DNA from: a virus
DNA length: 25,787 nucleotides
Direction: 5' to 3' (one strand)
IMG/VR virus record: IMGVR_UViG_3300009149_000240
Coordinates: 1 to 25,787 of that record
Part shown: positions 4,198 through 25,787 of the stretch, piece after piece
Position numbering within the stretch: position 1 is the first letter of the stretch
Layout: every line of letters starts with the position of its first letter
Made by a program: the position numbers and the translations under genes
Notes under the pieces: model-generated
Database searches by the model: none
Told to the model about the DNA's origin: nothing
Seen by the model: the letters and a program-made list of their open reading frames with translations, nothing else

Positions 4198-4208
4198 GGA
4201 GCAGTAAA

Positions 4209-4358
4209 ATGGAACGTTTGGAGATCGTAAGAAGACTAAAACTTCTTTTGGAAAAATTGGAAGACCCAGAATTATCGAGACAGGGCTATATTGACGTCCT
4301 GGAGCGCATTGAATGCCTGTCACTTGATGCTCAGTCAGATTTAGCAGAATCTTATTAA
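4209..4358 (+). CDS. Small helical protein (49 aa)
   Basis: A 49-residue ORF 11 bases after terL, with AAGGAG overlapping the terL stop codon and 7 bases before the ATG, so translation is well supported. The sequence begins MERLEIVRRLKLLLEKLEDP and ends in LSLDAQSDLAESY; it is predicted to be entirely helical, with leucine-rich spacing. The family is not recognised. It is the last gene of the packaging operon, 16 bases before promoter P2. A role as packaging accessory is only suggested by position. Confidence 0.6.
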   Translation: MERLEIVRRLKLLLEKLEDPELSRQGYIDVLERIECLSLDAQSDLAESY

Positions 4359-4374
4359 CAGGTCGTTTTTAAAT

Positions 4375-4403
4375 TTGACAAATTCATAAGCGCGTGATAT
4401 TAT
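4375..4403 (+). promoter_or_regulatory. Promoter P2 for the head module
   Basis: A perfect -35 box TTGACA (4375-4380), 17 bases, then TATTAT (4398-4403) preceded by TGA, an extended -10 element. It lies in the gap between the 49-residue gene and the portal gene and has the same -10 hexamer and spacing as P1. Transcription would start near 4410, so the portal must start at the ATG at 4421, not at the in-frame GTG at 4394, which lies within the promoter. Confidence 0.7.
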
Positions 4404-4420
4404 ACGCAAAAGGAACGAAT

Positions 4421-5875
4421 ATGCCGGATACTGAAGCTAATTTAGTTTTTACACGAAGAAATCCCGAATATATAGCAAATGAAAGCTTATGGAAACGCTT
4501 GAATCTTGCTTACTCGGGGGGTGAAACTTATATCAAAAAGGCTTTAATCAGGCACCTTTCTGAATTGGTCTTAGAATTTGAAGAGCGACAAGATAGAGCT
4601 TACTATTTTAATTATGTACGGCGCATACCTACCAGAATAACAGAATTCATACTGGCACAGAACCCGGTAAGGGCGGTCGCTGATGAAGAGATAGTAGCCG
4701 ATTTTGATAGATACGGAAACCGCGTAAACAGTGTTATGCGGCAATGGGAAATCTTAACCTTGCTTTACGGCAGTTCATGGATGCTTGTAGATAGCCCCCC
4801 TACTGAATTAGACGAAGACGGAGCGCCGCTCAAAAAGGATATTTCCCAAAAGAAAAGCGAAAAATTACGTCCTTACGGAATGGCTTTAAGCCCTTTATGC
4901 GTTACTGATTGGTCTTATGGCAAAGACGGGGAGCTTGATTGGGTTATTGTTGCATCCACTGAGCGCGTAGCATCTGACCCTTATACCGAGCCGGAATTAA
5001 CTAATTTACGCACACTCTGGACCCGTGAGTATTGGCAGGTATTTAAGCAGTTAGATAAGCAGACGGCAATATCTGTAGGCGATCAAGTCCCTCATTCTCT
5101 TGGTGCAGTCCCATTAATACGCCGGCTGAAAGTCGAAACCACGGCAATGGACTCAAAGCATTGGATGGAGGATGTCCTAAGAATTTCTGACGCTATTCTA
5201 AACAATGAGTCTGAATGTCAGATAAATATTGTTAAGCAGGTTTTTGGCCTGCTTGTTATCCCGGAATCATTCACCCAGAAACAAGCAGATATACAGCCGC
5301 AAAGCGGTACAGACGTAATAAATAAAGGCGAAACCTGGGGGAAAGCACTTTCAAGGTCGTTTGCGGTAACTGAAGACGAGGCAGAAAATGGTATTACTCG
5401 CTATATTTCCCCTGACGGAATTATCACAGCGGCTATTGAGTCAAGCAACGACAGACTCAAGCGCGAGCTTTACGATATCATAGGACTTGCTGTAAGAGAT
5501 CAAACAACGCAAAGGGAAAGCGCAGAATCCAAGGCGTGGGACAATCAGGCCGTAAGTGCATTCCTGCAGACCGAAGCCGACAGCCTAGAGGAAGCCGAAA
5601 TTAAAACGTGGGAAATGTTCAATAAATGGGATAGTTCAATAGCGGTCCCTGAAGTTAATTACAATAGAGATTTTAATGTACAGGAATTTCAGGCGTCCAT
5701 GTTAGCAATCACCGAAATCCTAGGTATGGGCGTTGGCGAAAAATTCCAAAAGAGAGCAATGCAAACCGCTTTAGGTCTTTTGGATCGCATTGAAAAGATA
5801 AGCCCGGAAGACAAAGCAGAAATTAAAAAAGAGATAGAAACGCTTACACTCGGCTCGACTATTCCAATGGAATAG
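4421..5875 (+). CDS. Portal protein
   Basis: The 484-residue protein lies right after the terminase module and before scaffold and capsid, the fixed place of the portal. NPEYIANESLWKRLNLAYSG, the tract YYFNYVRRIPTRITEFILAQNP (a wing/crown helix region), LYGSSWMLVDSPPTEL near residue 120 and GAVPLIRRL near 230 fit portal proteins of the DUF4055-like type; the exact subfamily is tentative. About residues 340-400 (SSNDRLKRELYDIIGLAVRDQ) would form the long stem helices, and the C-terminus (IEKISPEDKAEIKKEIETL) is helical. The portal is the dodecameric ring through which DNA enters. The start at 4421 has AAAGGA 7 bases upstream and lies just behind the P2 start site. Confidence 0.85.
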   Translation: MPDTEANLVFTRRNPEYIANESLWKRLNLAYSGGETYIKKALIRHLSELVLEFEERQDRAYYFNYVRRIPTRITEFILAQNPVRAVADEEIVADFDRYGNRVNSVMRQWEILTLLYGSSWMLVDSPPTELDEDGAPLKKDISQKKSEKLRPYGMALSPLCVTDWSYGKDGELDWVIVASTERVASDPYTEPELTNLRTLWTREYWQVFKQLDKQTAISVGDQVPHSLGAVPLIRRLKVETTAMDSKHWMEDVLRISDAILNNESECQINIVKQVFGLLVIPESFTQKQADIQPQSGTDVINKGETWGKALSRSFAVTEDEAENGITRYISPDGIITAAIESSNDRLKRELYDIIGLAVRDQTTQRESAESKAWDNQAVSAFLQTEADSLEEAEIKTWEMFNKWDSSIAVPEVNYNRDFNVQEFQASMLAITEILGMGVGEKFQKRAMQTALGLLDRIEKISPEDKAEIKKEIETLTLGSTIPME

Positions 5876-5930
5876 ATAAATAGAAAGTCTTAATTCAACA
5901 TGACAAGTTGTAAAAACGGAAGGACTTAAA

Positions 5931-6632
5931 ATGAATATCGCAGACATCTTGAAAAAGGTAGTAGCAGGAACAACGCTCAGCCAGGAAGAAAACGACTTCT
6001 TAAAATCGTACAAAGAGGGCGCCGGTATTCCGAAGGAAAGGCTGGACAGGGAAATTCAAGCGAAAAAAGACGCTGAAGCCGCGAAAGCTGAAGCAGAAAA
6101 GGCAAAAAAAGACGCTGAAGAAAGATTGAAAGCTCTTGAGGATTCAAAACTTTCCGACGCTGAAAAAGCTGAAAAAGAACGGAAGACGCGCGAGGAAACG
6201 AACAATCGCAGGATTGAAACACTCGAGCGCCAGAGAGACGAAGCCGAAGCTAAGGCTAAATCCCAGGACTTCCGTAATAACATTCAGGATTTAGGTAAAA
6301 CACATAAAGTGGAAGATACCGAAACCTTGCAAATGTTTGCCGAAAAAGAAAAGCTTGATTTTTCTGATAAAGACAGTGTTAATGCTTTTATCGAATCTCA
6401 GAAGACGGCAAGGCCAAGTCTCTTTGGTGCCGAAGTTAAAGGTGGCAGCGGTGCGAAACCCGGAATAGGAACCGGGAGTGTCCCACTTAATAAGATGCCT
6501 ACCACCGTTTCGGAAAAGGTGGCATATATTAAGGAACACGGTCAAGAAAAATATGTAGAACTGGCAGAAAAAGAATCTACTGACAAGGTTGCGGAATTTG
6601 AAGCCAGCAAAAATACCCCAACCACAAAATAA
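5931..6632 (+). CDS. Capsid scaffolding protein
   Basis: The 233-residue protein has the layout of phage scaffolds: a short N-terminal part ending in GAGIPKERLDREI, a long highly charged coiled coil from about residue 40 to 110 (repeated DAEAAKAEAEKAKKDAEERL-like heptads), and a less ordered C-terminal part (GGSGAKPGIGTG) ending in a helical basic/acidic tail. It resembles DUF4355/GP20-type scaffolds and sits directly before the major capsid gene, 12 bases upstream. It would guide procapsid assembly and then leave or be degraded. AAGGA precedes the ATG at 5931. No protease domain is visible here or nearby. Confidence 0.85.
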   Translation: MNIADILKKVVAGTTLSQEENDFLKSYKEGAGIPKERLDREIQAKKDAEAAKAEAEKAKKDAEERLKALEDSKLSDAEKAEKERKTREETNNRRIETLERQRDEAEAKAKSQDFRNNIQDLGKTHKVEDTETLQMFAEKEKLDFSDKDSVNAFIESQKTARPSLFGAEVKGGSGAKPGIGTGSVPLNKMPTTVSEKVAYIKEHGQEKYVELAEKESTDKVAEFEASKNTPTTK

Positions 6633-6644
6633 AAAGGTTATAAA

Positions 6645-7616
6645 ATGGCTATCACATTAGTATCGGATTTTAAGATTTATCAGGAAGAGTTCAATAGCGG
6701 CATGTATGAAAAAGAAGCCCAAATGATTGACCTCTTCAATGCTGCAAGTGGGAATTCTCTCGTGTTGGCGACTTCCCGCAAACGCGGCGAATACGACAAA
6801 AATAGCTTTTTCAAAAAGCTGTCAGGGTCGATTACTCGTCGTGATCTGACCTCAACCGCCGCCGCTACAGCGCTCAAGCTCGTACAGGACGAAAAAGTTA
6901 ACGTAAAACTTAACAAAAAATTCGGTCCAATCGATTCTACTTATGAGCCTTTCCGTATGCAGGGCAAGAATGCCGAGGCTGAATTTGCTTTCATCCTGGG
7001 ACAGGAATTTGCAGGAGCCAAAATTGCGAATCAAGTCAATACTTTGATTGCCGCGCTCGTCGCAGGAGTCGGGAATGTTGCTGATCTGCTGCATGATGGC
7101 ACAGCCGGAACGCCGACGCATGGTGGACTCGTGACAACTTTATCCAAACTGGGCGACCGCTCACAGGATATCGTTGCATTTATAATGCACTCAAAGAGTT
7201 ACTTTGATTTGATGCAGCAGTCCATTACTGATAAAGTATTTGAGGTTGCCGGCGTTACTATCAATACCGGTACTGTTGCAACTTTGGGAAAACCAACCAT
7301 CGTTACAGATAGCCCGGATTTGGTTACTTCAGGTTCACCAGACACATATCACGTTCTGGGATTGCAGACCAGCGCGGCCGTTGCTGAAGACCAAGACGAC
7401 GGGCTCATGGCTCTTGATCTTGTTACAGGGCTTGAACAGCTTGTAATGAGAACTCAGGGCGAGTTCAATTACAATATCGGGCTGAAAGGGTTTACTTGGG
7501 ATGTTTCAAACGGTGGAGCTAATCCAACAGACGCCTCCGTTGGAACTGGCACAAATTGGGATCAGGTTATGACAAGTATCAAAGACCTGCCTGGTGTTAT
7601 GGGTAATTTCCAGTAA
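6645..7616 (+). CDS. Major capsid protein
   Basis: The 323-residue protein after the scaffold gene is the major capsid protein, expected to have an HK97 fold. The N-terminal arm (residues 1-60) includes IYQEEFNSGMYEKEAQMIDLF; the core has FGPIDSTYEPFRMQGKNAEAEF, and the P-domain-like part has IVAFIMHSKSYFDLMQQSITD followed by INTGTVATLGKPTIVTDSP, a pattern typical of capsid proteins in phages with similar portals. The C-terminus is Gly/Asn-rich and ends in GVMGNFQ. AAAAGG precedes the ATG. A terminator-like hairpin follows 22 bases after the stop codon, as is common behind this highly expressed gene. Basis: context plus recognisable core pattern. Confidence 0.88.
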   Translation: MAITLVSDFKIYQEEFNSGMYEKEAQMIDLFNAASGNSLVLATSRKRGEYDKNSFFKKLSGSITRRDLTSTAAATALKLVQDEKVNVKLNKKFGPIDSTYEPFRMQGKNAEAEFAFILGQEFAGAKIANQVNTLIAALVAGVGNVADLLHDGTAGTPTHGGLVTTLSKLGDRSQDIVAFIMHSKSYFDLMQQSITDKVFEVAGVTINTGTVATLGKPTIVTDSPDLVTSGSPDTYHVLGLQTSAAVAEDQDDGLMALDLVTGLEQLVMRTQGEFNYNIGLKGFTWDVSNGGANPTDASVGTGTNWDQVMTSIKDLPGVMGNFQ

Positions 7617-12456: not shown

Positions 12457-12804
12457 ATGCAGGCGAAATTTCTGCATTTTTATTCAGGCTATACATGGCA
12501 CTCAATGAATGAACCGGGGAATTTGCCATTTGCGGTATTCGTAAGCCTTTATAAAATGATTGATGCAGTTGATGCAGACAGGGCAATAGAAACGGATATA
12601 CCGGCACTGACAGCGGTTTTATCTGGAAAAATAGGGAATATCAGGAAAAAGATTGAACATGTATACGAGGTAAAGCCAGAATTTGAAACTGAAGCACAAA
12701 AAATAGCGGACAGGCAGGAATCCTATAGAGTCTCACATGCAATAAGGATGGAGCGAGACAAGAATAAAGAAAAAATTGTGTTAAAGAAAAAAAAGGCTGA
12801 ATGA
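12457..12804 (+). CDS. Tail assembly chaperone, -1 frame extension (gpT-like)
   Basis: The 115-residue stretch from the first ATG is helical and ends basic (KEKIVLKKKKAE). The same frame is open upstream to 12403 and encodes SIGGCKLLIDPKFMQAKF before the ATG, so the true product is most likely the C-terminal half of the frameshift fusion. HFYSGYTWHSMNEPGNLPFAV is conserved-looking. There is no ribosome binding site at a usable distance from the ATG at 12457: the only strong one (GGAGG, 12424-12428) is followed by ATG TAA. The end overlaps the tape-measure start (ATGA), the usual arrangement of the lambda T region. Confidence 0.75.
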   Translation: MQAKFLHFYSGYTWHSMNEPGNLPFAVFVSLYKMIDAVDADRAIETDIPALTAVLSGKIGNIRKKIEHVYEVKPEFETEAQKIADRQESYRVSHAIRMERDKNKEKIVLKKKKAE

Positions 12805-15368
12805 TGGCTTATGATCTCGGAGTAATTGGGGCCGGCGTTAAACTTGATAATAAACCTTTTCTATCAAGTATTAATCAGATGCAAAACAGGACATCTTCTG
12901 TCCTGAGCGATATGCAGGGTGCTTTTTTACGCATCTTTGGCACATTAGGCGTTATTAAACTCTTCAAGGATACCACAACCGCATCCATGGACTTCGGGCA
13001 AGCATTGAGCAATGTCGTGAGTATTGCTGATGATCTGGAAATAGACGAAGTAAGAAAAGAAATTACAGGCTTGAATAGCGTACTCGGAAAAAGTACGGAA
13101 TTAACAAATAGTTTTTACCGTGCATATTCTGCCGGCGCCAGGGGGTCCGCAGAAGAACTAGCAAATTTCACAGGTGAAACGGCAAAACTAGGCCGTGCCA
13201 TTCGAGCCGACCAAATAGCAACAATGAAAGCCGTAACCAAGCTTATGAACAGTTACGGGCTCGCTGTCTCGGATGCTGCAGAAATTAATGATACCCTTTT
13301 TCAGATAGTTAAACAGGGGGATACGACAGGGCAGGAAATTGCCACGACTATCGGACTTGTTGCTAATTCAGCTTCAGTCGCCGGTGTTTCTCTGGATGAA
13401 ATGGGAGCCGCCTTAGCGGTGCTTACCAGGACAATGGAAACAAGCCGCGCCGTTGTTTCTCTGAATCAAGTTATTACCTCATTCCTTGACCCGACCAAAG
13501 AGGCTAAGGGCGTTGCCAAAGAATTAGGAATAGAATTAAGCGCGACAGCTATTAAAAATAAAGGATTCGCCGCCTCTATTGCAGAAATTAACGAGAAAGC
13601 CGGCGATAATGTCGAGGCTTTAAATTTAATGTTTGGTAATATCAGAGCTTTTCGTGCCATTGCCTCACTTGCCGGTACTCAATCAGAAACTTTTCAGAAA
13701 ATATTAGTTGAATTTGGGGAAAAAGGCGGTAGCGCGTTAAAGGCATTTGCTGTCCAGACAGATAATGCAAAAACGACATGGACAACCTCAATGGCCGATA
13801 TGAATAAAGCAATGATTCAATTTGGTGATGCAATTGCACCGATGGTTGAAGGGTTGAGCGTTATAATCACGGGGATATCTGATACTGTTAGCGGTATGGA
13901 TGGCTGGGAGATTAAGCTGGGATTAGGCGCTGTCGCTCTTTCTCTCATAACAAATAAACTCAGGGCGTTTGCTTTCACAACAAGAGAAAGCACAATGGCA
14001 AATGCGCTCAATACAACCTCAGTTAATGCAAATACTGCAGCATTGATGAGAAACGCCTCAGCCTCAGCACTTGCAAAACAATCCATTACAAGGAGTGCTG
14101 TAAAAACAGGGGTGTTTAAAAATCAAATTAATGCTTTAGGCGGCAGTATGGGTGTTTTAAGTGCGGCAATGATTGCCGTTCCCGTTGCAATGGCAAGCTG
14201 GAAATTTGGTAAATGGATTAGTGGCATTACCGGCATGGATGATAAACTTGTTAAATTTTACGGTAATTTATTGAATGGGCGTGAAGAAATTGTACAACAG
14301 GGATTTATTCTTGACGAGGCTTTGCTTGGTGCCAGGCGTGGCGTTTTCAATAAAAGACTTGACGACATGCAGAAGCAATTGCCTGAATTTACAGAAGAGT
14401 TTGACGAATTCCGCAAAAAACTCAGCCAAATAGATCCAGATGATTTACAGGGCTTGACTCAAATAGAAAAAAAATTCAGGGAATTTAAAAAAGATATTTC
14501 AACCCCGCTTGAGCTAGAAATCGCTGATATTGTACAAATGAAGCACCTTAAGGGAACACTAGCTGAAACCCTGCTGAACTTCACAAAAGAAGAAGCAGAA
14601 ATATTCCGCGCAAAATTTCAAGATGAAAATATAGACTTTATCACAAAAGATCAGATCAAGGGATTTATTGAACAATCGCAACAACTTACCGCCGCTTTCT
14701 CATTGCAAGAGGCGACAGATAATTTCGAGCACAACTTAATTGAAATTAAAAATATGGCTGCAAAATTTGAGCAGGATCGGCTTGATATAAGGCTTACGGC
14801 CGGGGGTGAACAGGCGCAAAGGGAATCACTTTTAGAGCAACTCGAGGTCGAACAGGCATTTTTTCAGACACAATTGAAATCTCTTTACAATGAGCAGCAG
14901 ATATTTAAAGCTGCCGGACTTGAAAAAGAAACCGAAAAAGTCACAGAAGAACTGCAAAAACAACTCGAAAAGTACGACGAAAATAAAGAAGACATTATTG
15001 ACCTGCAAAAAGAAATTGCAGATAACAGCCCCCTCGGGAAATTGCGTGAAGAAATGCAAAAAGCAGGTGGTATCCAGAAATTGCGTGATTCTCTTTTTAA
15101 GGACGGTGTAACACAACAAGAAAAAAATGTACTATTAAAAACTGCTGGTCCGGCCGGCGCGGAACGATTTGCCGAACTTTTAACAATAGCAAGAGATAGG
15201 GGGCTTGAGGGCAAACAGGCAGAAGAAGTCGCACTCAGTACATTAAACGAAGAGTTAAGGACTCAATTAAAGCAGGGTAATATAACAGATGAACAACAAT
15301 TAACACTACTTGAACGCATCGCTGAAGCTGTAGAATCCGGCAAAGGTGCAATCTTATTTGCGGGGTAA
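12801..15368 (+). CDS. Tail tape measure protein
   Basis: The 855-residue protein is the longest complete gene here and follows the frameshift pair. Residues about 50-350 match the PhageMin_Tail domain: SMDFGQALSNVVSIADDL, then GSAEELANFTGETAKLGRAI, KLMNSYGL, QIVKQGDTTGQEIATTIG, ANSASVAGVSLDEMGAALAV and FGNIRAFRAIASLAG. A hydrophobic stretch near 446-465 (SMGVLSAAMIAVPVAMASW) may insert into the host membrane. Residues about 630-770 are a long coiled coil. With about 0.15 nm per residue as known for tape measures, the tail would be around 125-130 nm. Two ATG codons stand at 12801 and 12804; the first overlaps the upstream stop codon. Confidence 0.92.
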   Translation: MMAYDLGVIGAGVKLDNKPFLSSINQMQNRTSSVLSDMQGAFLRIFGTLGVIKLFKDTTTASMDFGQALSNVVSIADDLEIDEVRKEITGLNSVLGKSTELTNSFYRAYSAGARGSAEELANFTGETAKLGRAIRADQIATMKAVTKLMNSYGLAVSDAAEINDTLFQIVKQGDTTGQEIATTIGLVANSASVAGVSLDEMGAALAVLTRTMETSRAVVSLNQVITSFLDPTKEAKGVAKELGIELSATAIKNKGFAASIAEINEKAGDNVEALNLMFGNIRAFRAIASLAGTQSETFQKILVEFGEKGGSALKAFAVQTDNAKTTWTTSMADMNKAMIQFGDAIAPMVEGLSVIITGISDTVSGMDGWEIKLGLGAVALSLITNKLRAFAFTTRESTMANALNTTSVNANTAALMRNASASALAKQSITRSAVKTGVFKNQINALGGSMGVLSAAMIAVPVAMASWKFGKWISGITGMDDKLVKFYGNLLNGREEIVQQGFILDEALLGARRGVFNKRLDDMQKQLPEFTEEFDEFRKKLSQIDPDDLQGLTQIEKKFREFKKDISTPLELEIADIVQMKHLKGTLAETLLNFTKEEAEIFRAKFQDENIDFITKDQIKGFIEQSQQLTAAFSLQEATDNFEHNLIEIKNMAAKFEQDRLDIRLTAGGEQAQRESLLEQLEVEQAFFQTQLKSLYNEQQIFKAAGLEKETEKVTEELQKQLEKYDENKEDIIDLQKEIADNSPLGKLREEMQKAGGIQKLRDSLFKDGVTQQEKNVLLKTAGPAGAERFAELLTIARDRGLEGKQAEEVALSTLNEELRTQLKQGNITDEQQLTLLERIAEAVESGKGAILFAG

Positions 15369-17432: not shown

Positions 17433-18818
17433 ATGTCAGTGACACCAATACCATTAAAAGTTGATGCAGCGACAAAACAGATTATTGAATCTTCAGGATA
17501 CCCAATACAGGAAACCGCATTGCCCTTGCTCGAATACGGGGTTGAATTACTTTTAAATCTTACTTATTACGACGTTGATACCACACAATTAGATACACCT
17601 ATTGTCTATCACCCGTTCTCTGTAAATGATTTATTCGCTTTTCGTGGTGATAATGATTTTAATACTTCTAATTTGCTAATGTTTCTAACTCAAGAGATCG
17701 CGGGAACGCCGCCTCTTTGGGTACTGGCGACTGGACATGAAATAGGCGATGTTGTACGGTCAACAGCCGGCAATTGGTTTTCGTGTATAGCAGCGGGAAC
17801 TACTGGCGGGTCTGAGCCGACATGGGACACTGACATAGGGGATACAACCGTAGATAATACAGTTACATGGCAAAGAGTTTATGACAACGACGGAATCAAT
17901 CAACCCGGAGACTGGGAAAGCGGGGGCACAGCAGATAAAACATTAGGTCAAATTTCCGTCAGACTGATTACGAGCACGACAAAGTTCGCGGCTTTTATTC
18001 TCAGCTTGGATATGTTAAGTCCGACAAGCACGGAAGCATTGATCCAGGGCTTTATGTTGTCGCCAGGAAACGCTTATTATACAACTATTCTGAATTCAAA
18101 ATTTCAGGCAGGCGGCACGGTTGATACCGTTCTTGCAATGCCATCCCCCGCCAACCCGGCATATCTAAACAGCGCACAAAGTTCAGCAATGTTTGTTGAC
18201 CGTGTTTTGTTTAATTTGGCCTCAGCAATTAATTTGCAAATTTCTTCAGGGGCAGTAACCCGCAATAATGCAGTTCATACACTGGAACCTGAGACGGGGA
18301 CAGCGGATGAGCTTGATACAATTAACGGCATTTTAGATGGAGAATGTTGTGTTTTAAAGGTAAATGATTCAGCAAACGATATAATCACATTAAAGCACGG
18401 TACCGGGAACATATTAACACCGGACGGGAACGACTTAATTTTAGAAAAGAACGGGATATTACTGATAATTGGCACAACGGGTGGCAACGTCGAAATAACT
18501 TTACCATTCAACCCCGCAAGTTATGCAAAAAGAGACGTGCAGAACGCTGGAAGTGGGACAACCGTATTAACAGCATTCAATGGGTTAAAACTGCTACTGG
18601 TAGACACAACAAGCGGCAGTGCCAGCATAACACTTCACGCCGCAGCAGACTGGAGTGGTGAGTTATTAATAATTAAAACTTCTGCCTCTAATACGCTAAC
18701 TGTCACGGGAACCGTAAACGGCGCTGTGAACCCGACAATCACAACAATAAGAGGCTCATATAATATATTTAATGACGGAAATGATAACTTTATCACTCCA
18801 AAAGTAATGACACCATAG
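17433..18818 (+). CDS. Tail fibre/adhesin protein with carbohydrate-binding-like module
   Basis: The 461-residue protein is modular. After a 90-residue N-terminal part (attachment to the tail is inferred), residues 95-149 hold a module common in phage tail proteins: LWVLATGHEIGDVV, NWFSCIAAGTTGGSEPTW and TVTWQRV, the 'GD.V....G..F.C..AGT.G..EP.W....G....D.TV.W' pattern seen in carbohydrate-binding-like tail domains. Residues 294-347 hold a beta module (ITLKHGTGNILTPDGNDLIL) that recurs in the next gene. The C-terminus is a Thr/Ser/Gly-rich beta region. AAAGGA precedes the ATG. It probably helps bind the cell surface. No signal peptide is present. Confidence 0.7.
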   Translation: MSVTPIPLKVDAATKQIIESSGYPIQETALPLLEYGVELLLNLTYYDVDTTQLDTPIVYHPFSVNDLFAFRGDNDFNTSNLLMFLTQEIAGTPPLWVLATGHEIGDVVRSTAGNWFSCIAAGTTGGSEPTWDTDIGDTTVDNTVTWQRVYDNDGINQPGDWESGGTADKTLGQISVRLITSTTKFAAFILSLDMLSPTSTEALIQGFMLSPGNAYYTTILNSKFQAGGTVDTVLAMPSPANPAYLNSAQSSAMFVDRVLFNLASAINLQISSGAVTRNNAVHTLEPETGTADELDTINGILDGECCVLKVNDSANDIITLKHGTGNILTPDGNDLILEKNGILLIIGTTGGNVEITLPFNPASYAKRDVQNAGSGTTVLTAFNGLKLLLVDTTSGSASITLHAAADWSGELLIIKTSASNTLTVTGTVNGAVNPTITTIRGSYNIFNDGNDNFITPKVMTP

Positions 18819-18826
18819 GAATTAAT

Positions 18827-20455
18827 ATGAAAAAAATCTTACAAATTTTATTGTTTTTTCTGATTTTACCGCTTTTTGCGGGGAAATTGCCTTTAGAGTA
18901 TGACGAATCCACCGGCGTGGCTGTCCCGGAGACGACAGATATTGATATTAACCCGTCTGGAGATTTTAAAGTAAAAGGAGCTAAGTCTAACGCCTTTTCA
19001 GATACAAACCAGACTGATTTGGGTTTGAACAACACGCACAGAGGCACAGTAACCGGCAACCCGCATGCTGTCACTAAAACAGAAGTGGGATTAGCGAATG
19101 TTACCGATAATGAACAAGTAAAGAAAACAGACGGGATCACGGTTGATCTTAATAAACTGAACCTTAAAGATTCAACAGAGCTTACTATTGGCACGGGTGC
19201 GGTCACAATAACGCAATCCACTCATACTATTGATGGTGAAAGCGACCTTGACGATGATTTAGTAACTATTAATGGAGAAACGCAAGGGGATGTGCTTTGG
19301 ATTGTCCCCGCAAATGCAGCAAGAAATATAACCCTTATACATAGTACTGGAAACATTATCACGCCAAGCGGCTCAGATTATCTTATTCCTGATAATGCCG
19401 TGATAGAATTACATTATGATGGTACGAATTGGCGTGTTATTGGCTTTTATTCTGCCAGTGGTGGCGGTGATGTAACCGGTCCAGCCAGTTCAACAACCGA
19501 TAATCTGCCTAGTTTCAGTGATACCAGCGGAAAGGTTATGAAAGATTCAGGCGTTAGCGCAAACAATCTTGTCCAGAACACCAGAAATATAAACTCAGGT
19601 GAAGGGATTCAGGGCGGTGGCGATTTGTCAGCAGATAGAACGCTTGCGTTGAATATAACTAGTCTGACTTCTGAAGCAACACCCACGAGCGGCGACGAGT
19701 TAGTTATATGGGATGGAGCTAATCACAAAAAGATTGACTGGGATAACTTACCAGGAGCAGCAGGGGGTGAGGCAAATACAGCCTCGAATGTCGGAGGCTT
19801 CGCAGGTTTATTTAAACAGAAAACAGGTATTGATCTCGAATTTAAAACAGTACAGAGTTCAGATAGCTCAGTTTCGATAACAAATAATGCCTCAGATATT
19901 GATTTTAAGATAACAAAAACAGGTGTTTACCGTACTTTATATGTTGATGCAGGAGCATACACACCATGCACCACGAATGGAGCAACTACAGGTACAAACG
20001 AATATGCTACAAATGATATTGAATGGGATTATTTCGCATTTGATGGAGGAGCGACAGAAGAGCGTATACAGTTTAAAATTGCCATGCCGGACGTATGGGA
20101 TAAATCAACAATTAAGATAAAATTTTATTGGTCAAGTGCAACGGGTAGCACGACAGCGGATACCGTAGAATGGGGAATAAAAGCAGGCGCTTTAGGGGAT
20201 GGTGATGCCATAGATACCGCATTAGGTACTGCTGTAACTATCTCAGACGCTTTACTTGCAGATAACGGCACGGATTTACAACTTTCATCTGCAACGGCTG
20301 CAATGACAGTTGGGGGTACTCCTGTGCTGGGCGATCTGGTAACATTTGAAATTTATCGTAATACTGACGGCACGGATGACATGGTAGAGGATGCGTGGCT
20401 GATGGGAATAATGATTCAATATAAAGAATCTGCAACAGAGCCTAGCGCATGGTAA
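18827..20455 (+). CDS. Mosaic tail fibre protein with N-terminal signal peptide
   Basis: The 542-residue protein combines several known tail-fibre pieces in order: TGNPHAVTKTEVGLANVTDN (78-95), a beta module ITLIHSTGNIITPSGSDYLI (168-187) shared with the preceding gene, GDVTGPASSTTDNLPSFSD (214-232), and GEGIQGGGDLSADRTLALNI (258-277). Residues about 365-542 form a C-terminal beta domain that could be the receptor-binding head. Unusually, it begins with MKKILQILLFFLILPLFAGK, a basic start, an unbroken hydrophobic core and an LFA cleavage site, an apparent Sec signal peptide. Virion fibres are normally assembled in the cytoplasm, so export is unexpected. There is no separate chaperone gene. 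Confidence 0.78.
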   Translation: MKKILQILLFFLILPLFAGKLPLEYDESTGVAVPETTDIDINPSGDFKVKGAKSNAFSDTNQTDLGLNNTHRGTVTGNPHAVTKTEVGLANVTDNEQVKKTDGITVDLNKLNLKDSTELTIGTGAVTITQSTHTIDGESDLDDDLVTINGETQGDVLWIVPANAARNITLIHSTGNIITPSGSDYLIPDNAVIELHYDGTNWRVIGFYSASGGGDVTGPASSTTDNLPSFSDTSGKVMKDSGVSANNLVQNTRNINSGEGIQGGGDLSADRTLALNITSLTSEATPTSGDELVIWDGANHKKIDWDNLPGAAGGEANTASNVGGFAGLFKQKTGIDLEFKTVQSSDSSVSITNNASDIDFKITKTGVYRTLYVDAGAYTPCTTNGATTGTNEYATNDIEWDYFAFDGGATEERIQFKIAMPDVWDKSTIKIKFYWSSATGSTTADTVEWGIKAGALGDGDAIDTALGTAVTISDALLADNGTDLQLSSATAAMTVGGTPVLGDLVTFEIYRNTDGTDDMVEDAWLMGIMIQYKESATEPSAW

Positions 20456-20472
20456 AAGGAATCACAGATTAA

Positions 20473-21258
20473 ATGAAAATATTTAAGATAATATTATTTA
20501 TGGGAATCAGTTGTTTTCTTGTCTCTTTTTCTCCTGTTCAGACACATAGGCGAAGTGCTTTTCGAGATACCACTTGGACAGCAAACAGTGCAGTATTAAG
20601 CGCACAAGATAGTACGCTAGTTGCTTATTGGAAAGCTGAGGGTATAAGCGACTCAAAAGGCAGTCACACACTGACGAATGTGGGGACTGCAACATATACA
20701 GCAGGAAAATATAATAATGCGCTTACATTAAACGGAAGCTCTCAGTATTTTACTGCTGTTGACGATTCTGATTTTGATTATGGTAGTGGCGAATTTACTA
20801 TTGCTTGTTGGTTTAATCGGTCGGCTACAGGTGTAGACCATAATATCTATCACCAACTAGCTAACGTTGGACAATATGCCAGCCCTGTTACGATACAAAT
20901 AACATCCGGCAATAAGCTAAAAATACTTACTTCAACAAATGGAACATCATGGACAACTACAGGAGAGGGCAGCACAACAATTAATGCGACAACATGGTAT
21001 CACTTAGTAATTGTGGGAGACGGAACCGATATCAAAGGATATATAAATGATTCGCTAGAAGTCACGCTGGCAAGTGTCGGCACGTTATTTAATGCGACTC
21101 AGGTAGTTGAACTCGGTGCTTATACATATTCAGGGGGCACTGTTAATCATTTTAATGGGCAGCTAGACGAACTGGCTGTATGGAAAGGTTATGGAGCAGA
21201 TAGTGCATTTATATCTGCTTTGTATAATTCAGGCACGGGATCATTTTATTTACCATAA
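20473..21258 (+). CDS. LamG/concanavalin-like lectin protein with probable signal peptide
   Basis: The 261-residue protein carries a LamG-like jelly-roll domain over residues about 45-255: DSTLVAYWKAEGISDSKGSH at the front, AGKYNNALTLNGSSQYFTAV, then GEFTIACWFN, TWYHLVIVGDGTDIKGYIND and FNGQLDELAVWKG, the standard run of the Laminin_G_3/concanavalin-like fold that binds glycans. The first 20 residues (MKIFKIILFMGISCFLVSFS) look like a signal peptide. A cysteine lies at 15, but the residue three before it is Gly, so a lipobox is doubtful. It starts 17 bases behind the fibre gene, with AAAGGA rather far upstream. It could be a surface protein of the host or a virion adhesin. Confidence 0.8.
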   Translation: MKIFKIILFMGISCFLVSFSPVQTHRRSAFRDTTWTANSAVLSAQDSTLVAYWKAEGISDSKGSHTLTNVGTATYTAGKYNNALTLNGSSQYFTAVDDSDFDYGSGEFTIACWFNRSATGVDHNIYHQLANVGQYASPVTIQITSGNKLKILTSTNGTSWTTTGEGSTTINATTWYHLVIVGDGTDIKGYINDSLEVTLASVGTLFNATQVVELGAYTYSGGTVNHFNGQLDELAVWKGYGADSAFISALYNSGTGSFYLP

Positions 21259-21629
21259 TGTTTATACTTAATCCAAAAAAGAATTGTTTTTTAACGTCCG
21301 AAGAGTTGGCAACAATAAAAATATTGTCAGCATCTTGCGGAATAAAGATATATGGTGTTAAAATTATCAAAAATACAGGGCTGTCATGGAAAAATAATAT
21401 TGCTTGTTTTTCGGTAATGAATCCGAATAGTATTTTTATTTGCGATGATATGCAGAACATGAAAAAGATTATGCCGCACATTGCACACGAACTGAAGCAC
21501 AGAGAGCAACTAAAAAGAATGGGAGCAGTCAGGTATTTATGTTTGGCAAATCCGATATGGAGAAAGGCAACTATTGAGCCTGAAGCGTATGCTGAAGAAA
21601 AGCGCGTAGAATTGGAATTAAATCTATGA
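21258..21629 (+). CDS. Small zinc metallopeptidase-like protein (HExxH)
   Basis: The 123-residue protein overlaps the lectin gene by one base (TAATG). Residues 77-81 read HELKH, an HExxH zinc site in a helix (IMPHIAHELKHREQLKRMGA), followed 25-30 residues later by IEPEAYAEEKRVELEL, where a glutamate could be the third ligand, as in gluzincin-like folds and small phage peptidase-like proteins. The N-terminal half contains beta strands (IYGVKIIKN, FSVMNPNSIFICDD). Without a recognised cell-wall-binding domain its substrate is unknown; peptidoglycan cross-links or a tail protein are possible targets. It is coupled to the small membrane protein gene downstream (ATGA overlap). Confidence 0.65.
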   Translation: MFILNPKKNCFLTSEELATIKILSASCGIKIYGVKIIKNTGLSWKNNIACFSVMNPNSIFICDDMQNMKKIMPHIAHELKHREQLKRMGAVRYLCLANPIWRKATIEPEAYAEEKRVELELNL

Positions 21630-21805
21630 AATATTTTGAAAATCACGAACCATTGGGACTGCCACCAGGCTCAGTCAGGGCTTGCATGGCAACAATGGTA
21701 CTTTTTACTATTTGCGCGATGAACGCCAGGGGAATGGAAATAAATCAAGAATTTTATATGGTATTAGGCACAATAATTGGCTTTTATTTTGGAAGTCGAA
21801 AGTAG
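21626..21805 (+). CDS. Small two-helix membrane protein (holin candidate)
   Basis: A 59-residue ORF that overlaps the metallopeptidase-like gene by 4 bases (ATGA). MKYFENHEPLGLPPGSVRAC is followed by a membrane segment (MATMVLFTICAM, about residues 18-32), a short loop (NARGMEINQE), and a second segment (FYMVLGTIIGFYFG, about 43-56), ending SRK. The 'LPxGSVRA ... FYFGxR' pattern is known from small phage membrane proteins located near lysis genes. A class II-like holin is a reasonable guess. It is too short for many gene finders, but coupling and pattern both support it. Confidence 0.65.
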   Translation: MKYFENHEPLGLPPGSVRACMATMVLFTICAMNARGMEINQEFYMVLGTIIGFYFGSRK

Positions 21806-21809
21806 GAAC

Positions 21810-22088
21810 ATGGAAAAAGCAGAGATAAAAGAATTCGCAAAAGAAGTTGTTAGGCTCCAAAACGAAAATAAAGCCGATGAAATGGAAAAAACGCATTGTA
21901 AAATAGGCTGGACTGTTGAGGATGTAGAAGCTCTAAAAGAGTTGACCGGCTATATAAGATCAAGCAAAAAGGCTGTTCGCAGAGCTATTTTCAGGATTAT
22001 TGTTATAAGCTTAATAGGTGGATTTTTATTTTTTCTGAGTGAAAAGGCTAAAAGTATTATCTTGGTACTGGCCAAACTTTTTAATTAG
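21810..22088 (+). CDS. Small membrane-anchored protein with cytoplasmic coil
   Basis: The 92-residue protein begins with a charged helix (EIKEFAKEVVRLQNENKADE), then CKIGWTVEDVEALKELTGY, a basic stop (SSKKAVRRAIFR), and one clear transmembrane helix (IIVISLIGGFLFFL, about 61-76), with a second hydrophobic stretch at the end (IILVLAKLF). It starts 4 bases after the holin candidate; the ATG at 21810 with AGTAGGA upstream is preferred to in-frame codons inside the previous gene. It may be an antiholin, holin partner or phage membrane accessory. The function is inferred from position and topology only. Confidence 0.6.
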   Translation: MEKAEIKEFAKEVVRLQNENKADEMEKTHCKIGWTVEDVEALKELTGYIRSSKKAVRRAIFRIIVISLIGGFLFFLSEKAKSIILVLAKLFN

Positions 22089-22097
22089 GTTAAAATT

Positions 22098-22442
22098 ATG
22101 GATAAATTAAGCGATTTTTTCAGGGGTGATACAAAGCAGGTGATAATGAATTTCACCAAACAAAGCGATGGTTCAAAGATCGACTTGACTGGCGCAACTC
22201 TCACATTTACCATGAAAAAAGATGATACTGACCCGGATGTTGACGCCGTGATTCAAAAAGATTTAGTTATTCAATCACCGGCAACAGATGGACAGGCAAT
22301 TTTAACTTTGACGCCTATTGACACCGACCAGGATACAGGCGATTATGTTTATGACATCCAGCTTGTAGACGCAACAAGCAGTGTTTCAACAATCCTGAAA
22401 GAAAGCATTGCAATTAAACAAGACGTAACAATAACGGCATAA
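22098..22442 (+). CDS. BppU-like Ig-fold baseplate/fibre adaptor
   Basis: The 114-residue protein matches the small N-terminal immunoglobulin-like domain of BppU-type baseplate proteins (DUF2479/BppU_N): FFRGDTKQVIMNFTKQSDGS, LTGATLTFTMKKDDTDP, then an acidic middle, GQAILTLTPIDTDQDTGDYV and YDIQLVDATSSVST. Such domains attach fibres to the baseplate and often occur as separate genes just before a fibre gene, as here: the next gene starts 1 base later. No catalytic residues are expected. Confidence 0.75.
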   Translation: MDKLSDFFRGDTKQVIMNFTKQSDGSKIDLTGATLTFTMKKDDTDPDVDAVIQKDLVIQSPATDGQAILTLTPIDTDQDTGDYVYDIQLVDATSSVSTILKESIAIKQDVTITA

Positions 22443-22443
22443 A

Positions 22444-23355
22444 ATGGCAGAATGTGACACAATTTCAGTCGAATTGATTGAAGAAACTATAGGCGTTAAA
22501 AACGTAGAGGAAATAGTAGACGTTAAGGTCGATTGTGTTTCTATTAATTATTCAGGAAAAACAGCACAAGTTGAAGATATTATAGAAGCTGGCGAGGGTA
22601 TAAGTGCATTAAAAGTGCTTAGAAATGATGCCACCGATAAAGCATTTATTGCAGATGTAAGCGATATTGCTGAAATAAATAGAATTATCGGGATATCAAA
22701 AACAGCGGCAATTATCGGCAATAGCGTGGAATATGTGATATCCGGGAGCCTGACAGATGTTTTATGGTCGTGGGATGTCACAAAACCTATATTTTTTGAC
22801 AGTAACGGAGATTTGACACAAACGCCGCCGGTTGCGGGGTTCAGTATGATAGTGGCAATCCCGATAACGAGTACAACTATAAACGTAACGATTAAGCAAG
22901 GAATTAAATTAGTGGACGACCATCGCCGAATATTCAAGGCACCCGCAACCGTGACTTTAAATACAGGAACGAGTTCTAGTACCGTTTCTGATTTACAAAC
23001 CTTAAATGACGGGAATACCTATGATCTTGCAGAAGCAGCAAGTACTCCAGGTATGAATTTAGAAATCAATTTTACAAGTGTGGATTCAGTTAAAGGTTTT
23101 GCAATAAAAGCGTATTATGTGGGGAGTTCGACCCATTACGTTGAGGTTCAGATTTGGAATGATACGACGAGCGCTTGGGACGTATTTGTAACGCTTCTTT
23201 CGGGGCTCGGCATGAATTATAGATATATTGAAATACCTGATTTTGATGCGGATTATATAGATGGTAGCGGAAACACAATAATCCGACTTTATCACCCAAC
23301 ATCCGGCAATGCTTCGCATGATTTGTATATAGATTATGTCGCTTTATTAGGATAA
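22444..23355 (+). CDS. Tail fibre/baseplate protein
   Basis: A 303-residue protein in three parts. Residues 1-45 repeat the string VE/VK-I-V-DVKVD (VKNVEEIVDVKVDCVSINYS), perhaps an extended attachment strand. Residues 46-160 show a pattern known from phage fibres: EAGEGISALKVLRNDATDKA, IIGNSVEYVISGSLTDVLWS, then FFDSNGDLTQTPPVAGFSMI. Residues about 165-303 are a C-terminal beta-sandwich-like domain (TVSDLQTLNDGNTYDLAEAA, THYVEVQIWNDTTSAWDVFV, HDLYIDYVALLG) that could bind a receptor. The ribosome binding site is weak, so translation is probably coupled to the BppU-like gene upstream. No signal peptide is present. Confidence 0.65.
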   Translation: MAECDTISVELIEETIGVKNVEEIVDVKVDCVSINYSGKTAQVEDIIEAGEGISALKVLRNDATDKAFIADVSDIAEINRIIGISKTAAIIGNSVEYVISGSLTDVLWSWDVTKPIFFDSNGDLTQTPPVAGFSMIVAIPITSTTINVTIKQGIKLVDDHRRIFKAPATVTLNTGTSSSTVSDLQTLNDGNTYDLAEAASTPGMNLEINFTSVDSVKGFAIKAYYVGSSTHYVEVQIWNDTTSAWDVFVTLLSGLGMNYRYIEIPDFDADYIDGSGNTIIRLYHPTSGNASHDLYIDYVALLG

Positions 23356-23370
23356 ATCAAAGGTAAAAAA

Positions 23371-23748
23371 ATGTTAAAATATTTACAAAAGACTATTGAA
23401 AATGAGGACGGGGGAATCGCCAGCGCATGGGAAGGATTGGATTTGGTCGTTAATCTGGAAACCAGAAAAGCGCACGTAAGAGAAAGAGGCTGGAAAACTG
23501 GGCAATATCTTGCAGACGGAAAAGGGCCTTGTGTGCCGCCTATTTTATGGAAAGAACCCGATATTGACATATTGGTGACTGTCGCTGAATATCCAGTGGG
23601 GACACCTATTGAAAAAGTCAATTTTGATTGTATAGTGACTCGTATGGTTACGCTGGATTACTACCCCGGCACAGAAACGCCTAACCCATTTAAAGGCGCG
23701 GTAATAACTGATACCCCGGAACCGACACCGGAAGATATCCCGGAATAA
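23371..23748 (+). CDS. Hypothetical protein
   Basis: A 125-residue protein after the fibre gene, with AAAGG 7 bases before the ATG. It starts MLKYLQKTIENEDGGIASAW, has a basic strand region (LETRKAHVRERGWKTGQYLA), PPILWKEPDIDILVTVAEYP and FDCIVTRMVTLDYYPGTETP, and ends proline/acidic-rich (DTPEPTPEDIPE), which may be a flexible tail. No family was recognised. The position between the fibre and the exported repeat protein suggests an accessory virion role, but this is only inference. Confidence 0.55.
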   Translation: MLKYLQKTIENEDGGIASAWEGLDLVVNLETRKAHVRERGWKTGQYLADGKGPCVPPILWKEPDIDILVTVAEYPVGTPIEKVNFDCIVTRMVTLDYYPGTETPNPFKGAVITDTPEPTPEDIPE

Positions 23749-23758
23749 AAGGAAAAAC

Positions 23759-23947
23759 ATGAAGAAGAAGCAAGACAAACCAGTGTCAACAGAGCCGGTA
23801 GCGAAGAAATTCACTATTGAACTTGAGGCAGAGCATGTAGGGCAAATTATGGACATTCTGGAACAAGTCAGATTGCCACATAGAACAATCCACCCTATTA
23901 TTGAGAGTATTAATAATCAAATCGAACTAAAAAAGGTGAAAAAATGA
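23759..23947 (+). CDS. Hypothetical protein (62 aa)
   Basis: A small protein starting MKKKQDKPVSTEPVAKKFTI and continuing with a helix (AEHVGQIMDILEQVRLPHRT) and a basic end (NNQIELKKVKK). AAAGGA lies 5 bases before the ATG. Its stop codon overlaps the start of the exported repeat protein (ATGA), so the two are coupled. The family is not recognised; similar short helical proteins are found among phage accessory genes. Confidence 0.55.
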   Translation: MKKKQDKPVSTEPVAKKFTIELEAEHVGQIMDILEQVRLPHRTIHPIIESINNQIELKKVKK

Positions 23948-25787
23948 AAAATGATTTTCTAAAAATGTTCGGAATTATTGCCTTTGCAATGGCAATATGT
24001 TTAAGCCCGGTTTTTGCGAAAGATGTCCAGCAGTTCGGGCTTTCGACAAACGTAGACAGCGCAACTGCTACAGATATCTGGGACTTAACAACTCAACCAA
24101 TATGGGTGGCACCTACACAAGCCCGCGTTCATGCTATTGTTTCTGCAAATGCCGGGGATAATGCAGGTACAGGCACTTTAACCTTAGCAGGGGTGCCGTT
24201 GGATACCGAAACCGTTACAATTAACGGGAAGGTTTACACTTTTCAGTCTACATTGACAGATGTAAACGGAAACGTTCTGATTGAGCCTGATGGAACCGCA
24301 ACTGGGACTCTAACATTCACAGACGTACCGGTAGACGGCGAAACTGTTACAATTAATAGCAAAGCTTACACCTGGCAGTCGATTTTAACTGATGTTGACG
24401 GTAATGTATTTATTGAACCAGATGCGACAGCCACAGGAACGCTGACAATGACCGGGGTGCCGTTGGATACCGAAACCGTGGTTATAAACAGCAAAACCTA
24501 TACTTTCCAGGCGACATTAACAGACGTTGACGGGAATGTGAAAATTGCCGGTGATTCCAGCGCAGCAGGTACGCTGACAGTTACAGATGTTCCGCTAGAT
24601 ACTGAAACGGTGACTATTGGATCAAAAGTATATACCTGGCAATCAATTCTGACTGACGTTGACGGGAACGTATTAATCGAACCTGATGCGACAGCGACAG
24701 GGCTTTTAACTATTTCCGCAAATCCAACAGACACCGAAACCGTTACTATAAGCTCAAAAACTTATACCTGGCAGGACACTTTAACCGATGTCGATGGGAA
24801 TGTGAAGATTGGTGCAAGTCAAGCCGAATCTGTAAGCAATATTTTGGCAGCCATAGAGGGGGGTGCCGGTGCCGGCACTAAATATGCTGCCTCAATGACA
24901 ACTAACACCGAAATAACAGCAATAAATAACGCTAATAATCTAGCTGTGACTGCTATTTTAGCGGGTGCAGTAGGAAATTACGGCACTACTGAAACAATGG
25001 CAAACGCCGCTTGGGGTGGCGCTAATATGACTGGTGGGACTGATAACGCAAGCGGGTCCGGCGATAACTTAGCTGCCGCAATTATCGGAGGTGCTGGGTC
25101 TGGCACAAAATACGCGGCCTCAATGGTAACAAATACTGATGTTACAGCCGTTAAGACTGCTGGAAATTTAGTATCAACAGCAATCAATGCCGGTACAAGT
25201 GCCAATGCTGTAGCCACCACCGAAACCATGACGAATGCGTCCTGGGGTGCGGCGAATCTAGCGGGCGGTACTGACGACGCAAGCGGATCAATAGATAATT
25301 TAGTAAAAGCGCTTGATCTAAGCGGTACCGGTGGCGTTAATTATGCGGCCTCAATGATTGCTGGCGGTGTAGTTACTGGCGTTAACAATGCCGGGGATTT
25401 AGACTTAACAGCAGATTTAGCGGGTACCGTTGGGAATTATACAACAACTGAAACCCTTACTAATGGAAGCTGGGGCGGTGCCGTAATGACCGGAGGCACA
25501 GACGATGCGAGTGGAAGTGCTGATAATCTGATTAGTGCTTTTGATTTATCAGGAGTTGCCGGGACTGATTATGCAACCTCTATGACTGTTGGAGTTGTGA
25601 CAGGTGTAAATAATGCCGGGAATATTGACGCTACAAGCAATATAGCTGGTCCTTTGGGTAATTATACCACGACCGAAACCATGACTAACGCATCCTGGGG
25701 AGGCGCGAATCTTACAGGTGGCACCGACGATGCAAGCGGGTCAATAGATAATTTAATCAGTGCAATTAATATGAGTGCCGGCGCAGG
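23944..25787 (+). CDS. Exported repetitive surface/fibre protein (3' end outside window)
   Basis: At least 614 residues, with no stop before the window ends. Residues 1-25 are a classic Sec signal peptide: MKNDFLKMF, a hydrophobic core IIAFAMAICL, and SPVFA before KDVQQ. Residues 26-76 are unique. Residues 77-296 are five exact 44-residue repeats (ETVTINxKxYTWQxxLTDVDGNV type); residues 297-614 are four repeats of 71-77 residues plus the start of a fifth (each with KYAASM or a similar string, NYTTTETMTNASWGGA, TGGTDDASGS). Both parts resemble halves of a beta-rich module known from phage fibre and structural proteins. The low-charge Thr/Ala/Gly/Asn composition fits an elongated adhesin. The gene is coupled to the 62-residue protein. 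Function is unknown. Confidence 0.75.
   Translation, partial: MKNDFLKMFGIIAFAMAICLSPVFAKDVQQFGLSTNVDSATATDIWDLTTQPIWVAPTQARVHAIVSANAGDNAGTGTLTLAGVPLDTETVTINGKVYTFQSTLTDVNGNVLIEPDGTATGTLTFTDVPVDGETVTINSKAYTWQSILTDVDGNVFIEPDATATGTLTMTGVPLDTETVVINSKTYTFQATLTDVDGNVKIAGDSSAAGTLTVTDVPLDTETVTIGSKVYTWQSILTDVDGNVLIEPDATATGLLTISANPTDTETVTISSKTYTWQDTLTDVDGNVKIGASQAESVSNILAAIEGGAGAGTKYAASMTTNTEITAINNANNLAVTAILAGAVGNYGTTETMANAAWGGANMTGGTDNASGSGDNLAAAIIGGAGSGTKYAASMVTNTDVTAVKTAGNLVSTAINAGTSANAVATTETMTNASWGAANLAGGTDDASGSIDNLVKALDLSGTGGVNYAASMIAGGVVTGVNNAGDLDLTADLAGTVGNYTTTETLTNGSWGGAVMTGGTDDASGSADNLISAFDLSGVAGTDYATSMTVGVVTGVNNAGNIDATSNIAGPLGNYTTTETMTNASWGGANLTGGTDDASGSIDNLISAINMSAGA
24172..24831 (+). repeat. 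Five tandem 132-bp (44-residue) repeats
   Basis: Units begin at 24172, 24304, 24436, 24568 and 24700, each starting GTLT (GLLT in the last) and containing ETV.I..K.YT.Q..LTDV.GNV. The period is exactly 132 bp with no insertions. Units 1 and 3 resemble each other (YTFQ), as do 2 and 4 (YTWQSILTDVDGNV, IEPDATAT), showing a 264-bp higher-order duplication; a 26-base stretch at 24190-24215 recurs exactly at 24454-24479. Confidence 0.9.
24832..25787 (+). repeat. Tandem repeats of about 225-231 bp, second type
   Basis: Units run approximately 24832-25044, 25045-25275, 25276-25503, 25504-25728 and 25729 to the window end (partial). The GGTD motif that ends each unit lies at residues 364, 441, 517 and 592, so the spacing is 77, 76 and 75. 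Shared text includes DNL.....(L/I), YA.SM, TTETMTNASWGGA and TGGTDDASGS. These units continue beyond the window, so the copy number is unknown. Confidence 0.85.

Follow-up and report, generated by a model that had tools for sequence, protein, structure and literature searches.

Why would the tail fibre of a tailed phage be made with an export signal? The question is raised by a 25,787-base linear record of IMG/VR (IMGVR_UViG_3300009149_000240), the whole of which was analysed and is hereafter called the window; three of its 34 counted genes, starting at positions 18827, 20473 and 23944, encode fibre- or adhesin-like proteins with apparent Sec-type signal peptides. To our knowledge, the tails of tailed phages are thought to be built inside the cell, and textbook assembly is wholly cytoplasmic. 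Comparison of the window with its relatives confirmed, at the level of sequence, that the Sec-type signals on these virion-type fibre proteins are real, and that they are wider in occurrence than was known when a first-pass annotation of this DNA described them. A real possibility, and the one tentatively favoured here, is that late-added tail parts would be made as Sec preproteins, exported, cleaved, and joined to heads at lysis.

The N-termini of the three proteins read MKKILQILLFFLILPLFA^GKLPLEYD (18827; ^ marks the predicted cleavage), MKIFKIILFMGISCFLVSFSPVQT (20473) and MKNDFLKMFGIIAFAMAICLSPVFA^KDVQQ (23944). Each has a basic n-region followed by an uncharged hydrophobic core right at the start codon, as the first-pass annotation had described, and the two cleavage sites that it called clean (LFA before GK and VFA before KD) do show Ala at -1, with the residue at -3 being acceptable. 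All start codons are ATG, preceded by AGGA for 18827 and 20473 and by AAGG for 23944, and no Shine-Dalgarno-backed start was found just past the hydrophobic part of any of the three. A dual start, with a signal-less form produced from an internal start, was ruled out by the lack of backed internal starts, and a lipoprotein identity for 20473 was ruled out because its GISC is no lipobox. The parts of the three proteins are as follows.

18827-18880, plus strand: predicted Sec-type signal peptide of the fibre, 18 residues, LFA^GK
18827-20455, plus strand: tail fibre of 542 residues, with signal, collar-fibre repeats, depolymerase-type beta-sandwich and C-terminal module
19007-19234, plus strand: tail-collar-fibre repeat region of 18827, residues 61-136 (phrog_34368, E 1.4e-6; phrog_25620, E 2.4e-4)
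19271-19435, plus strand: depolymerase C-terminal-type beta-sandwich of 18827, residues 149-203 (PF25692, E 3.7e-4, below the Pfam cut-off)
19928-20452, plus strand: C-terminal fibre module of 18827, about 175 residues, found in about 70 different proteins of environmental phages, of which 10 have a signal
20473-20526, plus strand: predicted Sec-type signal of the LamG protein, with a weak cleavage site
20473-21258, plus strand: LamG-domain second fibre or adhesin-like protein of 261 residues (Laminin_G_3, PF13385, E 2.7e-16)
20545-20565, plus strand: HRRSAFR motif of 20473, residues 25-31
23944-24018, plus strand: predicted Sec-type signal of the repeat protein, 25 residues, VFA^KD
23944-25787, plus strand: repeat protein of at least 614 residues, truncated where the contig stops; the related proteins of other phages (L006-L009) are without a signal

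The collar-fibre repeat and beta-sandwich matches bear out the earlier statement that 18827 carries standard virion-fibre modules; together with its location 3' of the tape measure gene, they identify it as a tailed-phage fibre protein.

Signals were called with a rule-based detector rather than SignalP, the rule being a basic start, an eight-residue hydrophobic core and small residues at -3 and -1. It called 3 of the 34 window genes, against a mean of 0.29 in 34 for shuffled window proteins (P ~0.003), and all three calls lie inside the fibre block (P ~0.01). Shuffled proteins pass the detector at less than 1%, with 2/633 passing for the genes of contigs that share the 18827 module. When a looser version of the rule was applied to control genomes, lambda yielded only Lom, Rz and Bor, all of them truly exported or membrane proteins, and T7 yielded nothing. 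The earlier view that the signal is surprising since known tail proteins lack it is supported.

A profile of the 18827 C-terminal module retrieved 80 loci, comprising 70 distinct module proteins. A signal was found on 10 of the 70 (nine by rule and L027 by inspection, a Glu breaking its core), a fraction that is not a rate for phages in general given that the sample was picked by similarity to the window module. The contigs with signal-bearing modules span G+C contents of 38-62% and include both podovirus and siphovirus types. Other genes of at least 120 residues carry signals about five times more often on these contigs than elsewhere (17/102 versus 19/531; p 6e-6). Several of the 17 can be recognised as fibre or spike proteins, such as L027:2374, with a Peptidase_S74 fibre chaperone domain, and L004:2665, with a pectate-lyase-type beta helix; signals are absent from terminase, portal and head proteins. 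A Shine-Dalgarno sequence is present at 21/31 signal starts, and internal starts with such backing are almost absent. The best sites in 35 signals have Ala at -1 in 26 and Ala or Val at -3 in 25, frequencies that are somewhat biased by the choice of each site as the best of several. The excess over shuffles and the recurrence in relatives mean that the window signals are neither chance nor unique to the window. A further family of 404-444 residues with a signal-like start (EETEIVTGQETSPNYIP; L076:11567, L083:4842, L100:4927 and L105:8935) is encoded after the fibre genes of phages in which the module fibre has no signal.

Export-type starts also precede core parts of the tail. The relative G004 (L123), which has a terminase, portal and major head protein, carries them on four consecutive genes, for an adaptor-like protein, a nozzle, the module fibre and, with a Tat-like start, a fourth protein. 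The nozzle gene, L123:5163, has a clean signal and AGGAGG before its start, and its identity as a podovirus tail nozzle comes from an AlphaFold model (pLDDT 65): the best 22 Foldseek matches of this model in the PDB (E 1e-15 to 5e-6) are to tail or portal-tail structures of podophages, including those of T7 (gp12), P22 (gp10), SU10 and cyanophage A4. The adjacent adaptor-like protein, L123:7775, matches phrog_399 (E 2e-14), with profile position 2, and hence the usual start, at its residue 28; its model is poor, and its best fold matches are weak and to tail or connector chains. The semi-tryptic peptides that would begin at the predicted cleavage sites are GKLPLEYDESTGVAVPETTDIDINPSGDFK in the window and SSQQNSTTSAEDFISDVR in L123:7775. 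The fourth gene (L123:3323-4147, minus strand) has the Tat-like start MLTRRKFIELTAIWGALLPASAQA^SW and occupies the position of the HRRKAFR proteins discussed below; the RR start of EBPR siphovirus 2 gp70 (L034:8589) resembles it.

Two further genomes extend the pattern. In G011 the nozzle and three other genes are signal-bearing, and G011 and G004 together make up the clean cases of nozzle signals. The nozzle gene of G002 (L118:13922-16759, minus strand) has an in-frame signal-coding stretch upstream with ATC at the start place, identical in two metagenome records (L131 and L132). A phrog_7759 protein of G002 (L118:11583-12014, minus strand) carries a signal ahead of the usual start, and 37 isolate records align to it only from about residue 19; the phrog_7759 members of pelagiphages and cyanophages are apparently without signals. 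Outer-membrane beta-barrels with signals, 55% identical to each other, are encoded by G002 (L119:12561-13103, minus strand; PF13505, E 1e-16) and G010 (41245-41787, minus strand), and because both encode such barrels, diderm hosts are suggested for these two phages.

How the signals relate to the proteins behind them is seen from G010, a relative whose tail genes are without signals. In the adaptor-like proteins (37% identical), residue 2 of G010 aligns to residue 21 of G004, where cleavage is predicted; the corresponding residues of G010 and G004 are 8 and 27 in the nozzle, and 6 and 28 in the fibre. The nozzles of G002 and G010 are 77% identical, and the products of their next fibre gene have 68% identity across the first 75 residues that they share, G002 having 21 extra N-terminal residues that make up the signal, such that its residue 27 aligns to residue 6 of G010. 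Because the signal-less orthologues start almost exactly at the predicted cleavage site, the signal is, on these alignments, an add-on placed exactly before normal tail proteins, which sets of tail genes gain or lose. The first-pass annotation had held that homologues starting downstream of the hydrophobic part would speak against a signal; many relatives do start there, but the pattern across gene sets is that of an add-on, not of wrong starts. No second copy of the nozzle or module fibre was found in any record, some of which are incomplete, and because each record has a single one, the signal-bearing nozzle or fibre is probably the virion copy and not a decoy.

A short motif, L-x-H-R-R-K-A-F-R, provides a further ruler. 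It lies at the N-terminus of proteins often encoded after or near the module fibre, its carriers being the window LamG protein (20545-20565), L027:9458, L050:9535, L036:12436, L049:9494, L039:6686, L029:766, L014:7830 and L051:7554, and the domains that follow it are unrelated between carriers (LamG, Gly-rich and others). In signal-less phages the motif stands 4-14 residues past the start Met; in L027 and L050 it stands about 6-7 residues past the predicted site of cleavage, a distance that is about matched past the weak site in the window. The signal status of fibre and motif partner is concordant in 11/12 contigs (p 0.018; a small sample). By analogy with branched receptor-binding systems, the motif is possibly a docking peptide.

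The remainder of the window is that of a siphovirus-type contig, with terminase, portal, major head, minor head, an Ig-type protein and tape measure followed by the fibre-like gene block. Its neighbouring features are these.

2779-7616, plus strand: terminase large subunit, portal and major head protein (head module), signals absent
12801-15368, plus strand: tape measure protein (phrog_1533, E 2.2e-27), without a signal; siphovirus-type tail
17433-18818, plus strand: fibre-like neighbour protein, without a signal
21626-21805, plus strand: small hydrophobic protein between signal-bearing genes, holin-like at best (PF11351, E 0.019, below cut-off)

Near the contig start, positions 1059-2009 encode a phrog_2045 family protein (E 4e-86), a family with no assigned function. 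Cultured-phage relatives of the structural proteins are remote (at most 42% identity for the major head protein, about 31% for the terminase). In the IMG/VR scan neither the window terminase nor the LamG protein gave a match as query, and the LamG alignment gave four loci only; among 50,697 phage records, tblastn found no match to either the LamG protein or the nozzle of G010. A nozzle profile matches the window LamG protein (E 4e-12), and LamG-like insertions occur within tail nozzle proteins at L133:2549-5719, L137:5959-9051 and L134:5905-9132.

Taking the observed signals, their placement before virion-type proteins, the single copies, and the orthologues with and without signals, we infer that the proteins are exported, cleaved and joined to heads at lysis. 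The late-added parts of the tail (fibres and second, lectin-like fibres; in relatives also the podovirus nozzle and adaptor-like protein) would be synthesised as Sec preproteins and pass the inner membrane, where signal peptidase I would cut the signal off. The mature proteins, with N-termini equal to those of the signal-less orthologues, would fold and wait outside the cytoplasm, while heads, portal and terminase would be made inside it, as would the tail tube of siphoviruses. On opening of the membrane at lysis, the cytoplasmic and exported pools would mix, and virions would be completed with DNA-filled heads. In P22 and T4, it is a classical finding that fibres and spikes made separately can join particles in vitro. 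Of the options listed by the first-pass annotation, the addition of fibres after lysis is thus the one favoured, and it is extended here to other tail parts. The fullest form of the idea, in which virions would be built in two compartments, with DNA-filled heads in the cytoplasm, Sec-exported and signal-peptidase-processed nozzle, adaptor and fibres in the periplasm, and no joining of the two before lysis, as a modular trait gained or lost across the tail gene set at once, is more doubtful.

Several points weigh against this scheme. The cleavage site of 20473 is weak (LVS^FS, with Pro after the next candidate). The G002 nozzle signal is without an ATG, GTG or TTG start, the ATC following AGGAG, and may be decayed. 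Signal sets are incomplete, in that the G002 adaptor-like protein and the window protein at 17433 have none. Only G002 and G010 show a barrel pointing to diderm hosts. Heads would, moreover, have to stay closed until lysis with their adaptor and nozzle exported.

Other explanations account for parts of the evidence. The exported fibres might not be virion parts in this form, but receptor-binding proteins exported during infection that mask receptors, remove surface polymers, or prevent superinfection and binding to debris. Many of the exported proteins are receptor-binding or enzyme-like, with LamG, carbohydrate-binding or, in L004:2665, beta-helix domains, and in lambda the gene of the exported Lom lies between those for the tail spike and the fibre (PMC12309495); however, the signal-bearing nozzle and adaptor-like protein bind no receptor, if the single module or nozzle copy served as a decoy, none would remain for the virion, and a Sec signal alone gets only to the periplasm in a diderm host, all of which makes this explanation unlikely. 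Uncleaved or slowly cleaved anchors, collecting tail parts at the inner membrane for tail assembly and head docking, would recall the membrane-associated assembly of some phages and would suit the weak site of 20473. This option of the first-pass annotation fits poorly with the A-x-A type sites of most signals (with the bias noted above) and with signal-less orthologues that begin at the cleavage point, and a Sec signal would put the protein body outside the membrane; we regard it as quite improbable.

The display of prophage-encoded adhesins on the host surface, or lysogenic conversion, would be in keeping with adhesin-like domains bearing export signals in a tail region, and had also been proposed earlier. 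It is the least credible of the explanations: tyrosine integrase (PF00589) was found in none of 10 records, three of them of 39-44 kb, with positive controls, though the records may be incomplete; a strict scan of genomes placed the module in a single contig of a bacterial genome (L031, from a Phycisphaerae bin), where the module gene is without a signal; and core tail parts are also signal-bearing, including the nozzle, which is no adhesin. That the hydrophobic starts are accidental or mis-called and without function is very unlikely. The detector is rule-based, and the apparent signals of three module hits (L042, L044 and L060) did prove to be mis-called starts, but the Shine-Dalgarno counts given above favour the signal starts, the signals cluster by phage, and in the orthologues the signal stands in place of the initiator Met.

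If late-added tail parts are indeed exported before lysis, virion completion would hinge on the export route of the host, on signal peptidase and on when lysis occurs, and the secreted-bacterial-protein look of some environmental phage parts would be explained. It would then also be unsafe to label a metagenomic fibre gene as a host gene or secreted effector on account of its signal. A natural experiment is at hand in the orthologue pairs, one member bearing a signal and the other none.

In the open-licence literature, the coverage of which is incomplete, no description was found of tail proteins of tailed phages with Sec signals, and the target proteins of phage diversity-generating retroelements are stated to lack signal peptides (PMC6199706). 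Already known are signals on filamentous virion proteins, the exported non-virion Lom, and exported endolysins; their presence on tail proteins of tailed phages appears, from that literature, to be new. Lambda Lom is a signal-bearing exported protein encoded within the tail-fibre region (PMC12309495), but it is an outer-membrane barrel and not a fibre, and G002 and G010 have a comparable barrel besides their tail genes. The signal-bearing endolysins fOg44 lysin and J5a (PMC8878798) are also late phage proteins on the host export route, but they are lysis enzymes, unlike the virion parts described here. PblA and PblB of phage SM1 are tail-type proteins proposed to act at the host surface; they differ in having no ordinary signals, in reaching the surface through lysis, and in being lysogen-borne. 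The T7 gp12 and P22 gp10 nozzles resemble L123:5163 in fold and in gene place after portal and adaptor-like genes; the T7 gene is without a signal, an absence that is usual for podovirus nozzles even if it does not strictly define them, whereas L123:5163 has one and its G010 orthologue none. A further parallel is offered by the coat proteins of filamentous phages (M13 pVIII and pIII), which are virion proteins with cleavable export signals; inoviruses, however, are extruded through the envelope without lysis, whereas the phages considered here are tailed head-and-portal phages whose cytoplasmic heads are separate.

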